Positions 5,768 to 52,119 of a DNA stretch of 54,836 bases are shown here, piece by piece (the stretch's first letter is position 1; each line of letters starts with the position of its first letter). The position numbers were made by a program, and so were the translations under genes. Source of the stretch: an uncultured Colwellia sp. (GTDB lineage: Bacteria; Pseudomonadota; Gammaproteobacteria; Enterobacterales; Alteromonadaceae); the NCBI GenBank assembly GCA_913061475.1, contig CAJXUN010000030.1, positions 1-54,836 on the forward strand. The letters run 5' to 3'. The notes under the pieces are model-generated. The model did no database searches and had not been told where the DNA came from. It saw only the letters and a list, made by a program, of their open reading frames with translations.

Positions 5768-5821
5768 AATATTCCCCTTCTTGGATCCTAACAGCGACCG
5801 GCCTTTCGCTTAGTGAATATT

Positions 5822-6062
5822 ATTAGGCAGGTCTTCTGACTAAGACATAAAATTTATTAGCAATAAATTAACGTTTGATACCTTCCCAGCGCTATCGCCA
5901 GTGGTTTTAGTACTGTGCCATTCGATATACAGAGTGTATTTTGATTGGCAATGAGTATTTACAAACTAATATGTCATTACAGCGTTGGGCACGTATTGGA
6001 TTTTCACCAATTTCCCTATTCTCTATGATTTGCGTAGCAAAACACAAATCGAAAGCACCTAA
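5822..6062 (-). promoter_or_regulatory. cobalamin riboswitch upstream of bluB
   Basis: Read on the minus strand, the conserved blocks of the cobalamin aptamer appear in order. They are AGGTGC near 6060, AATAGGGAA (6012-6020), GGTGAAAATCC, a CCAACGCTGTAATG block (5975-5988), CACTGG then GCTGGGAAGG (5881-5890), and the B12 box AGTCAGAAGACCTGCC (5826-5841). The bluB start lies 58 bases downstream, leaving room for an expression platform that hides the AAGGGG ribosome site. Established behaviour of this family is repression when adenosyl- or methylcobalamin is plentiful. A 70-codon plus-strand frame at 5941-6153 is a shadow of this RNA. Confidence 0.93.
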
Positions 6063-6186
6063 AAATGATTTTCGGCACTATAGCATTCGCCGCATTGATT
6101 GGACAATGTATCTTAGCGTTAGGTCATTATTTATTGGATATAGTTTGATGTAGTTATTGATAGGGCGATATAAATCGAGGCGATAA

Positions 6187-49013: not shown

Positions 49014-50858
49014 TTAAAAACCACATTGTTTGCCTTGGTTCTTCTCTTTTAACCAGGTATGCAATGGTGCAAAGTAATCAATAATAGCGGTGGCATCCAT
49101 TTGCTCGCTACCTGTTAATACCTTATATGCTTCTTGCCATGGCTTACTTGAACCCATTTCTAGCATGGTATTTAACGCTGCACCGGCATCTTTGTTGTTA
49201 TATATAGAACAACGATGGATCGGATCGGTATTACCTGAAATCTCACACAAAGCACGATGGAACTCAAATTGTTGAATATGTGCTAAGAAATAACGAGAGT
49301 AGGGTACGCCACCAGGAACATGATATTTAGCACCAGGGTCAAAAGCGTTGACGTCACGATCAACAGGAGCGCTTACACCTTGATATTTCTCACGCAATTC
49401 CCACCAAGCAGTATTGTAGTTTTCTGGTGTAACTTCACCGGAGTAAACTTTCCAACGCCACTGATCAACCATTAAACCAAAAGGAATAAAGGCGATTTTC
49501 TCTAACGCCATTTTCATTAACAAACCAATGTCTTTTGACTCATCAGGAATGCTATCAATGAGACCAATTTCTTTTAAGTACTTAGGTGTAACTGATAGCG
49601 CAATGGTGTCACCGATAGCTTCGTGAAATCCGTCATTAGCACTGTTTTGATAATAAACAGGTTGGTTTTTGTACGCGCGTTGATAAAAGTTATGGCCAAG
49701 TTCGTGATGGATAACTGAAAATTCTTCGCCAGTTTTTTGGATACACATTTTAATACGAATATCATCTTTGGCATCTAAATCCCACGCTGACGCATGACAT
49801 ACCACATCACGATCGGCAGGTTTAGTAAATAATGAACGCTGCCAAAACGTTTCTGGTAAGGCGTCAAAACCAAGTGAAGTAAAAAAGCCTTCAGCGCCTT
49901 TTACCATTTTAATTTCATCGTAGTTGTTAGCAGCAAGTTGCTGAGTAACGTCATAACCAGGATCCGCATTTTCTGGTGCGACTAGATCATAAATGTTGCC
50001 CCAAGACTGCGCCCACATATTACCTAATAAATGCGCAGGAATGGGTTGGTCTTGTGGTACTTTGTCTTCACCGTAAGTTTCGCCTAACTCAGAGCGAACA
50101 TAGCAATGTAAGTCATCATAAAGTGGCTTTACTTGTCCCCATAAACGGTCAAGCTCTTTGGCAAACTCATCAGCGGGCATATCATAATTAGAACGCCACA
50201 TTGCGCCTAAATCAGGGTAGCCTAAGCCTTGTGCACCTTCGTTACCAAGCTCTGCCTGACGAATGTATAAAGGTTTCATATCTGGGCTGATAGTTCTCCA
50301 GCCTTTCCACATTTCTAATAATTCATCGTAGTCACGTGATGTCGCCATTTTAGCCGTCATCTTACCTAAGCTTAATGTCTCGCCAGCTTTAGTGGTGTAA
50401 GTGCCTTTGCCATACATGCTATTTAATTCAGCGCCAATGTTGGCTAATTCTGCTGATTTAGCAGAATCTTGTGGTGCTGGCATAACCAAACTTTGCTTTA
50501 AAATATTGAGTTTTCGGCGTTGGTCTTCACTAACGTTAACATTATCAAATTTAGCGGCTGCCATGGCGAATCGAACGCCCGCTTCCGTTGATTTTTGATC
50601 GGCCGCGGCCGCGAGAGCAGAAGTATCTTCAGTAATGAAGTTTGAATTTATCCAAGCGGCACGACTTCCCTCAAGGTTTAATTGCACCATTTCTTTTGCG
50701 GTATCGGCTAAGAACTTCTCTGCGTCTTGAGCTGTTAATGCTTGGCTTGTTACGCTTGCAGGTGTAACGTCATTTTTTGTCGTGTTATCACCAGTGCAAG
50801 CACTTAGACTTGCGGCAACTAAAATAGCTACTGTGGTTAATTTAAATGTTGATTTCAT
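49014..50858 (-). CDS. M2-family peptidyl-dipeptidase (ACE-like) lipoprotein
   Basis: A zinc metallopeptidase of 614 residues, homologous to angiotensin-converting enzyme, that removes dipeptides from peptide C-termini. It has a lipoprotein signal (TVAILVAASLSAC), so it is membrane-anchored in the periplasm. The zinc site is HHELGHNFYQ (His385, His389) with the third ligand in HEAIGDTIAL. Length matches the single-domain bacterial enzymes. Together with the DPP7-like enzyme and two S8 proteases it fits a peptide-scavenging lifestyle. Two candidate small RNA genes lie upstream on the same strand. Confidence 0.94.
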   Translation of the reverse strand: MKSTFKLTTVAILVAASLSACTGDNTTKNDVTPASVTSQALTAQDAEKFLADTAKEMVQLNLEGSRAAWINSNFITEDTSALAAAADQKSTEAGVRFAMAAAKFDNVNVSEDQRRKLNILKQSLVMPAPQDSAKSAELANIGAELNSMYGKGTYTTKAGETLSLGKMTAKMATSRDYDELLEMWKGWRTISPDMKPLYIRQAELGNEGAQGLGYPDLGAMWRSNYDMPADEFAKELDRLWGQVKPLYDDLHCYVRSELGETYGEDKVPQDQPIPAHLLGNMWAQSWGNIYDLVAPENADPGYDVTQQLAANNYDEIKMVKGAEGFFTSLGFDALPETFWQRSLFTKPADRDVVCHASAWDLDAKDDIRIKMCIQKTGEEFSVIHHELGHNFYQRAYKNQPVYYQNSANDGFHEAIGDTIALSVTPKYLKEIGLIDSIPDESKDIGLLMKMALEKIAFIPFGLMVDQWRWKVYSGEVTPENYNTAWWELREKYQGVSAPVDRDVNAFDPGAKYHVPGGVPYSRYFLAHIQQFEFHRALCEISGNTDPIHRCSIYNNKDAGAALNTMLEMGSSKPWQEAYKVLTGSEQMDATAIIDYFAPLHTWLKEKNQGKQCGF

Positions 50859-51007
50859 AAATATCCGTTATTGTTTTTGTTAGCGCTAAATTTGCGCCTT
50901 TTGTTAACGTAATAGAAGGTCATGGCTAGTTTAGATTGAGATGACGATATTGGCAACAACATTGGCTTTTGTTGCTTTTATTTCAACGCAATTGACAAAT
51001 TTTGGGC
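50859..51007. other. 5' region of the M2 peptidase gene
   Basis: About 140 bp lie between the M2 start and the first sRNA terminator. The peptidase promoter must lie here; a TTGTCA-like -35 near 50995 on the minus strand is possible, but no paired -10 was clear. Confidence 0.3.
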
Positions 51008-51102
51008 AAAAAAAAGCTCAGCGAAAGGGATGCTGAGCCATTATATAAAATATACTAGGGAAAGTATGAAGTTCGCGTTTCAAAAGCATGCTCTTGAACC
51101 AC
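51008..51102 (-). ncRNA. candidate small RNA A (downstream copy)
   Basis: A minus-strand module of about 95 nt. A TATTAT box (51109-51114) lies 19 bases after GACAGT in a conserved upstream element. The predicted RNA has stem-loop 1 (51079-51098, eight pairs), stem-loop 2 (ATACT/AGTAT at 51052-51067 with loop UUCCCU) and a terminator (GCTCAGC/GCTGAGC at 51016-51038 followed by eight T). No open frame of note occurs. The pyrimidine loop could pair with a Shine-Dalgarno sequence such as AGGGAA. The paralogous copy B lies about 200 bp upstream on the same strand. Start site is estimated. Confidence 0.65.
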
Positions 51103-51133
51103 GCAAATATAATATCGCTGATGGCTGTTTTTA

Positions 51134-51155
51134 ACTGTCATGATTCTGTAACAGT
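51134..51155 (-). promoter_or_regulatory. conserved upstream element of sRNA A
   Basis: ACTGT at 51134-51138 and ACAGT at 51151-51155 form a dyad containing CTGTA. It matches the element before copy B (51330-51345) except for about six extra bases inside. It sits where an activator or -35 contact would be expected; the LexA spacing CTGT-N8-ACAG is not met. Confidence 0.45.
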
Positions 51156-51208
51156 TTGTACTCAACTATCGATTATTGCTTTTAAATTTTCTCTGGTGAA
51201 TTTTGGGC

Positions 51209-51298
51209 AAAAAAAAGCTCAAGCAAAATGTTGAGCTAAAAAATATACTAAGGAGAGTATAATAAATTCACTATTCAAACATCAGCTGTTTAAAAGAT
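51209..51298 (-). ncRNA. candidate small RNA B (upstream copy)
   Basis: A minus-strand module of about 90 nt built like copy A. A TATTAT box (51305-51310) lies 19 bases after GACAGT. Then come stem-loop 1 (51274-51294, TTTAAACA with TGTTTGAA), stem-loop 2 (TATACT/AGTATA at 51244-51261, loop CUCCUU, the exact complement of AAGGAG) and a terminator (AGCTCAA/TTGAGCT at 51216-51237 plus eight T). Stem sequences differ from copy A by paired changes (G-C in A against A-T in B at the terminator loop end), which supports RNA structure. Start site is estimated. Confidence 0.65.
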
Positions 51299-51329
51299 GG
51301 GTTAATAATAATGATTTGTGGTGTTTTTT

Positions 51330-51345
51330 ACTGTCTGTATACAGT
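51330..51345 (-). promoter_or_regulatory. conserved upstream element of sRNA B
   Basis: ACTGTCTGTATACAGT is a near-palindrome placed like the element before copy A relative to the TATTAT box. Its position and conservation between copies suggest an activator or repressor site. It also lies about 150 bp upstream of the divergent PsrA-like gene and might serve that gene instead. Confidence 0.45.
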
Positions 51346-51492
51346 AGCATTTTTTAATCTAGCTAGGGGAGTAGGGGGTTTCCTTGCTTTTGCTGGTTTA
51401 GCGGCTTAATCCTTGTTGCGTTATTTTAAACGCTTGTTTAAACTGCTTGTATTAATTTATTTCTTAAACTAGAACTACGGCGTTATTTACCT

Positions 51493-52119
51493 ATGAGTAC
51501 GAAGAATAAAATATTAGATGCAGCAGAAAATTTGTTTGCAGATAAAGGTTTTAATGGCACGTCTTTACGTGAAATAACCAGTCAGGCAGAAGTAAACTTA
51601 GCGGCAGTTAATTATCATTTTGGCTCGAAGAAAGAGTTGATCAAGGCGGTTATGTCCCGTTACATGAATGAATTATCGCCACGTTTGGAAGTTGCTCTAA
51701 CACAGGTATGTGCCACAGATGCGCCAAGTTTAATTGATGTGTTCTCTGCTTTTATTGATCCGTTATTATCATTAAATGAATTTAAAGATAACGGTACTAG
51801 TAATTTCTTGCAGCTTTTAGGCCGAGGTTATACCGATAGTCAAGGTTTCTTGCGTTGGTTTTTAACCACGCAATATCCAGGTGTTATTGATAATTTTATC
51901 TTAGCAGTACAGAAAGCTTACCCTGAATTAGGTGCTGAAGAAATGTTTTGGCGTTTGCACTTCACCATGGGCACTGTAGTTTTTACTATGTCTTCGAGTG
52001 ACGCACTCATTGATATCGCAAAAAGTGATTTCGATCGAGATTTACAAATATCAGATGTGATACGCAACGTGATCCCTTATGTTGCCGCCGGTGTTGGCGC
52101 ACCTATGCCAAAATTTTAA
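51493..52119 (+). CDS. TetR-family regulator, PsrA-like
   Basis: A protein of 208 residues with a TetR helix-turn-helix whose sequence GTSLREITSQAEVNLAAVNYHFGSKKELI closely follows PsrA-type regulators (the SLR.IT..A.VNLAAVNYHFGSKK pattern). PsrA in Pseudomonas and Shewanella senses long-chain fatty acids and represses beta-oxidation genes. The C-terminal domain (about residues 80-205) fits that group. No fatty-acid gene is adjacent. A weak ribosome site precedes the ATG. Confidence 0.85.
   Translation: MSTKNKILDAAENLFADKGFNGTSLREITSQAEVNLAAVNYHFGSKKELIKAVMSRYMNELSPRLEVALTQVCATDAPSLIDVFSAFIDPLLSLNEFKDNGTSNFLQLLGRGYTDSQGFLRWFLTTQYPGVIDNFILAVQKAYPELGAEEMFWRLHFTMGTVVFTMSSSDALIDIAKSDFDRDLQISDVIRNVIPYVAAGVGAPMPKF

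Follow-up and report, generated by a model that had tools for sequence, protein, structure and literature searches.

A TetR regulator gene, which we take to be PsrA-like, and an M2 (angiotensin-converting-enzyme-like) peptidase gene flank a pair of repeated units in the genome of an uncultured Colwellia sp., and an initial annotation of this DNA had read these units as small RNA (sRNA) genes whose products pair with ribosome-binding sites. Is this what they are, and, if so, what would control such RNAs and what would the RNAs act on? We analyzed the whole 54,836-nucleotide stretch of DNA (the window), the 4.28-Mb genome to which it belongs and the genomes of relatives.

Two paralogous cassettes lie between the TetR and M2 peptidase genes

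Direct reading of the sequence reveals two sRNA-type cassettes on the minus strand within positions 51358-51008, repeated with a period of 196 bp, which we call U (the upstream copy) and D (the downstream copy; Table 1). MAFFT alignment and BLAST identify them as paralogues: with copy U as the query, copy D is retrieved from its own genome with an E value of 2.4e-9, and there is no further match at E<=0.001. Neither BLAST nor the promoter model described below finds a cassette in this genome other than the two in the window. The initial annotation had reported two diverged minus-strand copies about 200 bp apart, loops reading CUCCUU and UUCCCU, runs of eight T followed by GCCCAAAATT, and terminator stems that differ between the copies, and in all of this it was correct. 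The DNA that follows the T8 runs, GCCNAAAATTT (window positions 51200-51208 and 50998-51007), is conserved, also in relatives, and in these genomes it likewise comes after the terminators that end unrelated sRNA-like genes.

Table 1. Features of the cassette locus, with positions in the window and the basis of each assignment
Feature	Position	Strand	Basis
TetR regulator gene, upstream neighbour	51493..52119	+	Pfam TetR_N PF00440 and TetR_C_30 PF17939
Palindrome TTTAAACGCTTGTTTAAA at TetR gene	51425-51442
U: upstream activator-type element, four WWACA-like half-sites spaced 10-11-10 bp, degenerate	51322..51358	-	Weight-matrix score 43.7 (U is itself a training copy)
U: -10 TATTAT	51305..51310	-	Direct reading; block conserved in promoter alignment
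U: predicted sRNA of ~90 nt, start inferred from -10	51209..51299	-	Fold z -3.86; match to model R2
U: stem-loop 1	51269..51299	-	Predicted fold
U: stem-loop 2	51244..51261	-	Six-base loop CUCCUU at 51250-51255; reading and fold
U: intrinsic terminator AGCTCAA..TTGAGCT T8	51209..51237	-	Fold and terminator comparison
D: conserved four-half-site upstream element	51126..51162	-	Weight-matrix score 51.8; R1 match E 5.8e-12 (D is in the training sets of both)
D: -10 TATTAT	51109..51114	-	Direct reading; promoter alignment
D: predicted sRNA of ~95 nt with predicted start	51008..51102	-	Fold z -3.60; alignment of 16 orthologues including D
D: stem-loop 1	51075..51102	-	Fold; some two-sided compensated changes among orthologues
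D: stem-loop 2	51052..51067	-	Loop UUCCCU at 51057-51062; fold, orthologues
D: proposed seed UUCAUACUUUCCCU, anti-start CAU plus anti-SD	51057..51070	-	Invariant in 16 orthologues
D: intrinsic terminator GGCTCAGC..GCTGAGC T8	51008..51039	-	Fold, orthologue pairing, terminator comparison
M2 peptidase gene, downstream neighbour	49014..50858	-	Pfam PF01401 E 1.7e-224

The cassettes are divergent from the TetR gene and codirectional with the M2 peptidase gene. For comparison, we used 79 loci from named genomes that carry a homologue of the TetR gene (the best 80 of 92 stretches encoding a relative were kept). Among named relatives, the TetR gene is closest to that of Cognaticolwellia aestuarii (96% identity) and next to those of Colwellia and other Cognaticolwellia species. 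In 76 of the 79 loci, AAAC-N4-GTTT lies upstream of the TetR gene at a distance of no more than 150 bp.

The cassette promoters share four regularly spaced half-sites

A promoter weight matrix was trained on 59 of the 61 copies obtained in a regular-expression pass, and these training copies match it by construction. Rescanning the window, six further loci and the 79 named loci at a score of at least 24 yielded 79 promoter copies (identical repeats counted once), 73 of which lead to the terminator sought. In an alignment of 74 promoters, the sequences keep ATTACAAAnTGTTACnnTATCnATACAGTAAAAAACA-N11-TATTAT, with WWACA half-sites at alignment columns 3, 13, 24 and 34 (TTACA, TTACn, ATACA and AAACA; spacing 10, 11 and 10 bp). 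The element stops 11 bp short of the -10, and the alignment contains no -35 hexamer. When the promoter was compared with itself at 13 shifts, the optimum was 10 bp (z 2.0; p 0.02, uncorrected for the number of shifts). The order of parts given in the initial annotation therefore stands except for ACTGT..ACAG and GACAGT-N19, which are fragments of this longer element; because relatives keep ATTACAAAnTGTTACnnTATCnATACAGTAAAAAACA-N11-TATTAT, the GACAGT at N19 is not a -35 hexamer.

Such a site layout is typical of class II promoter binding by OmpR/PhoB-type regulators, and from the architecture we infer that the four half-sites without a -35 resemble an OmpR-family site. The reverse complement of the half-sites reads GTAAC-N5-GTAAT; GTAAA-N5-GCAAA has been described as similar to the CpxR site (PMC7083825). 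Beyond the two window sites, the full motif has no match below E 0.1 in its own genome, and the lack of a third site is odd for a global regulator.

Two sets of sites without an apparent sRNA were encountered among relatives. One genome (G037) contains a good match to the promoter element (L128, at ~1500 on the minus strand; E 2.4e-5) that precedes a small membrane-protein-like reading frame, which could be a member of the same regulon as the cassettes. In three others (G007, G002 and G008; loci L007, L010 and L014), relic-like GTAACAGTTTGTAA-type sites lie upstream of the TetR gene with no sRNA apparent by eye behind them, and these are perhaps decayed cassette copies.

The cassettes form arrays of variable size in Colwellia and related genera

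At least one cassette copy is present in 45 of the 79 TetR-homologue loci; the 34 loci without a copy include those of Shewanella, Idiomarina, Aestuariibacter and Paraferrimonas and one Rhizobiaceae record. Copy number per locus ranges from one to arrays of four or five. Four promoters are found in each of L044 and L088, and four cores in each of L179 (genome G019), L181 (G045, with a period of 171 bp) and L122. L065 contains four cores followed by a T7 run and a fifth followed by T6, and just one of these approximately five cores has a promoter that scores at least 24.

We searched more broadly with two models. R1, a promoter model based on sequence only, was built from 74 sequences, most of which come from TetR-locus relatives. 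Under strict filters that lose weak matches, it retrieved 30 of the 147 genomes of the family at E<=0.01, and for 20 of these the match held at E<=1e-4. Twenty of the 30 loci are TetR or M2-peptidase loci, across genera, and two are arrays beside other genes (L118 and L123); no sRNA was found at eight, L128 included. Order-wide, 10 of 394 genomes matched at E<=0.001. Six belong to the family, and the other four were rejected as members since they match only in part and the 280 bases inspected contain no combination of UC core and terminator. R2, an RNA model of 40 copies to which eight of the 17 genus genomes contributed, matched 16 of the 17 at E<=4.5e-11, including all 16 near-complete genomes, eight of which gave no copy to the model; the genome that failed is a 66%-complete assembly. 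Copy U, itself part of R2, scored 78.4 bits (E 2.9e-15). Four second-tier R2 matches were examined and set aside: three (L162, L163 and L165) follow the same conserved protein gene and consist of a UC-rich run and then a terminator, and the fourth (L164) looks like an ordinary terminator.

Two arrangements away from the TetR locus bear on how the cassettes act. In G019, a four-copy array lies between an S9 peptidase gene and an outer-membrane efflux gene, and in G063 a single copy adjoins a convergent XRE-cupin gene. The hairpins and terminators could be a cis-acting leader, i.e., tandem attenuators of the M2 peptidase gene, given that the window array lies upstream of and codirectional with that gene, that the gene was detected at 56 of the 79 homologue loci, and that the G019 array is codirectional with the efflux gene. 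We nevertheless consider this very unlikely: the convergence of the downstream gene in G063 makes a leader impossible there, a promoter element and a terminator of their own accompany both window copies and most others, and unsystematic inspection disclosed neither a leader peptide nor an antiterminator.

Other sRNA-like elements are present in these genomes. A second, different tandem array (L026, G005:C26, ~1420-2000; L178, G000:C4:86947-87003, in the genome of the window) has a period of ~147 bp, a promoter GAACTTAT...TCTTATTA that resembles an RpoE site, a core ACTTACTTCCCTGAG and a T8 terminator, and it has BLAST matches at E<=0.001 in all 17 genus genomes, that of the window included. 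A third element, with the loop GATCTGTCAATC, is found in 21 of the 79 loci (L045, L046, L049, L050 and 17 more) and not in the window. It is encoded on the minus strand, as is the array, and adjoins the TetR gene; inspection by eye of the four loci named showed a promoter of the GAACTT/GAACTA type and a terminator with a T run.

Predicted pairing, an open UC core and a U-rich terminator end recur in relatives

Both copies are predicted to fold more stably than dinucleotide shuffles of their sequences; none of 200 shuffles was as good as copy U, and two of 200 were as good as copy D. In the alignment of the 16 D orthologues, paired cells make up 97.3%, compared with 94.9 in shuffles and 27.6-50.0% with slid partners, and 10 cells are changed on both sides, compared with 3.4 in shuffles (0/500 shuffles). 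Counted by pair instead of by cell, two-sided changes affect three, which is unexceptional (188/500 shuffles). Stem-loop 2 of copy D shows no covariation because its pairs are nearly invariant. In 40 copies drawn from several genera, four of the seven terminator pairs have changed on both sides, and stem-loop 1 is too divergent to align; folded singly, many but not all copies form a hairpin in its place. Covariation of the stems is partial.

The initial annotation had also assigned both copies a second stem, ATACT..AGTAT. This stem is retained, almost invariant, in the 16 D orthologues of the genus and is not kept in Thalassotalea-type copies, in most of which the UC core is nonetheless predicted to be single-stranded. 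The second hairpin is a genus-level trait, and the conserved part is the open UC core, which reads UUUGUUAUACUCUCCCUUAU in Thalassotalea-type copies and has variants elsewhere. Of 90 copies, 77 have YUCCC or UCUCC on the 5' side of the terminator, compared with 16.2 in dinucleotide shuffles, and the mean predicted probability that this motif is unpaired, 0.88, is at the 85th percentile of 5-mers within the same RNA. Thirteen of the 90 copies lack these motifs, and four lack all 16 accepted hexamers of a list picked post hoc. A T-rich end, compatible with Hfq, is present in 90/90 copies, which were selected for their terminators.

The copies differ in what their cores could pair with. The 14-base seed of copy D, UUCAUACUUUCCCU, is invariant in 16 sequences and complementary to a Shine-Dalgarno (SD) sequence followed by AUG; UUCCCU lies in the predicted open loop, and the AU of CAU is predicted to take part in the helix of stem-loop 2. 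In copy U, the anti-SD sequence is present without the anti-start CAU. Psychrerythraea-type copies carry a separate stretch 5' of the terminator, which is UUUCAUGUUGUAGUUU in most.

Short single-stranded motifs in multiple copies are a habit of decoy RNAs, and the open UC motifs might accordingly bind an RNA-binding protein (as CsrB- or Crc-type decoys do) rather than mRNAs. This we regard as highly improbable, as CsrA decoys carry GGA and the motif here is UC-rich, each RNA has approximately one motif, and the conserved extension in copy D fits an SD plus start codon. Protein titration has been raised as an option for the repeated motif of LhrC by the authors who described it (PMC4132741). 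That the cassettes are instead a mobile or selfish (REP- or MITE-like) repeat with a promoter and terminator by chance is barely credible, for while copies are tandem, near-identical and variable in number (as in the G045 array) and lie beside other genes in G019 and G063, the genome of the window has only two, 20 of the 30 R1 loci are the same locus across genera, and the stems carry compensated changes.

The two separate cassettes are conserved in relatives together with their promoter, predicted pairing, exposed pyrimidine core and U-rich terminator end, and random dispersal, which the initial annotation had named as a sign of a mobile repeat, is not seen. These observations support its reading of a multicopy trans-acting anti-SD sRNA family, the homologues having kept pairing and an exposed UC core, whose loss would have spoken against it.

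The cassettes resemble known sibling sRNAs in design

In a search of Rfam 15 with the whole window, no sRNA family reached threshold, and the only match was a cobalamin riboswitch elsewhere (5809-6077, minus strand, 70.4 bits). The cassette region alone gave one match at E<=1 and 11 at E<=10, all below cutoff, and nine relative loci gave none at E<=0.1. Rfam 15 presumably includes CyaR, OmrA-B, LhrC and Qrr. The initial annotation had been reminded of CyaR, a likeness that the search does not bear out, as CyaR gave no match up to E 10; RyhB, tsr26 and STnc220 were far below cutoff. The sole match at E<=1 was RF02278 (the Betaproteobacteria toxic sRNA, bdhR1 or S17; PMC11722255), described as sharing UCUCC before the terminator; it scored 16.9 bits (E 0.5-0.8) where the cutoff is 50, which is chance level, and we rejected it as a homologue.

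At the sequence level, the cassettes are two homologous sRNA-type genes in one genome, each with a promoter and a terminator, as sibling sRNA genes are, and their proposed design matches that of csRNAs, LhrC and NmsRs, i.e., siblings that direct a UC core against translation starts. The csRNA promoters are controlled by a response regulator of the OmpR family. The csRNAs of streptococci are CiaRH-dependent and present in two to six copies, distal or tandem (PMC4211561), and are described as several similar sRNAs with a direct-repeat response-regulator site and an unpaired region directed against SD plus AUG (PMC3091779). In sequence, copy D shares with them the order of anti-SD plus CAU, although part of its CAU is predicted to be paired. 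They belong to another phylum and differ in sequence, however, and their CiaR repeat, TTTAAG-N5-TTTAAG, is absent from this region and from the promoter consensus, which has four half-sites instead. LhrC1-5 of Listeria are likewise multicopy, all LisRK-dependent and induced by cell envelope stress, and recognize targets through CU-rich UCCC motifs, impeding lapB translation (PMC4132741). Each LhrC has three UCCC motifs, compared with approximately one core per cassette, and the cassette region gave no Rfam match to LhrC up to E 10. Also similar are NmsRA and NmsRB (NgncR_162/163) of Neisseria, tandem siblings of like structure with a UC-rich anti-SD sequence in a loop and a single-stranded stretch (PMC5362039); we liken them to U and D by description and not by sequence, and they are under the stringent response in an unrelated genus.

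OmrA and OmrB pair with targets through their shared 5' end, whereas the cassettes, although tandem siblings too, would use the UC core, and the cassette region gave no Rfam match to them up to E 10. In enterobacteria, OmrA and OmrB (88 and 82 nt) are under EnvZ/OmpR (PMC4211561). A common two-component regulator is thus a feature of csRNAs and LhrC; for the cassettes, the architecture of the site suggests one. Among the literature titles listed for Colwellia and Alteromonadales sRNAs, none names such a family, which is not proof of absence, and an sRNA study mentioning Colwellia psychrerythraea concerns Shewanella piezotolerans (PMC5471319). The cassettes belong to an apparently unnamed family of Colwellia and related marine bacteria.

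Target searches show no clear excess over controls

Prediction of targets by loop-SD pairing, as suggested in the initial annotation, gave no clear excess over reversed-pattern controls in 17 genomes (three genomes for the psychrerythraea-group stretch). The complement of the UC core had 15 matches in the 17 genomes (13 without the array itself), compared with nine for the control, and a match recurring in five genomes was rejected as a target site because it lies inside an open frame. The start-codon stretch of the psychrerythraea group had 13 matches in its three genomes, two of them apparently the array, compared with nine for the control, and the eight viewed included no convincing start site. 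With one mismatch allowed, the complement of the D seed had seven non-self matches in the 17 genomes, compared with 10 for the control, and none of the seven is in the genome of the window. Four of them are at open starts (two M1 peptidase genes, a glycogen-synthase-like gene and a 71-aa frame), a placement that is favoured anyway since the pattern itself holds an SD plus AUG.

The M1 peptidase start AGGGAAAATATGAAA, found in two relatives, is one base in 15 off the complement of the D seed. Pairing is weaker at the corresponding start in the genome of the window (-10.2 kcal/mol), where 12 of 38 sampled start regions reach -10.6 kcal/mol or better with one of the two seeds, and varies from -7.2 to -17.6 kcal/mol among 13 orthologous M1 start regions. 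Having been chosen after the search, the M1 peptidase is a lead only. Ranks 4 and 5 of the 38 are held by two window genes, one subtilase-like and one TonB-receptor-like as judged by eye; the list is a ranking, not evidence.

A model for the cassettes and its implications

Together, our results make it probable that U and D encode sibling trans-acting anti-SD sRNAs of the csRNA, LhrC or NmsR kind, each with its own promoter and terminator. In this model, a winged-helix response regulator of the OmpR/PhoB type (CpxR-, OmpR- or RstA-like) would bind the four half-sites, spaced by ~10 bp, that replace the -35, and because the copies share these half-sites they would rise together under one signal, perhaps from the envelope. 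The RNA would probably be joined by Hfq at its U-rich tail, and the open UC core, with CAU in copy D, would pair with the SD and start-codon region of several mRNAs and block their translation. Copy number would set the dose, and diverged copies would widen the target set. The anti-start CAU of the D seed, the four-half-site promoter and the between-species variation in copy number had not been part of the initial annotation.

A wider reading is tentative, and taken as a whole we are slightly more inclined to doubt it than to accept it: the cassettes may constitute an undescribed, clade-restricted family in which one envelope-type signal sets off an array of anti-ribosome-site RNAs, numbering from one to four or five, that grows and shrinks between species as a dosage device and whose copies split roles between SD only and SD plus start codon, with the psychrerythraea group adding a conserved stretch, UUUCAUGUUGU, that would also fit the start-codon region. 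The TetR locus would then be a hot spot, given the further RpoE-like sRNA candidate in 21 of the 79 loci.

The best-known examples of anti-SD sRNAs that are multicopy and under two-component control come from Gram-positive bacteria, and those of tandem anti-SD siblings come from Neisseria. Were marine gammaproteobacteria to use such a design too, with copy number varying in nature, they would provide an independent instance of this solution, and the family would offer a ready system, in cold-adapted marine bacteria, for asking whether sRNA copy number sets the dose or widens the range of targets.
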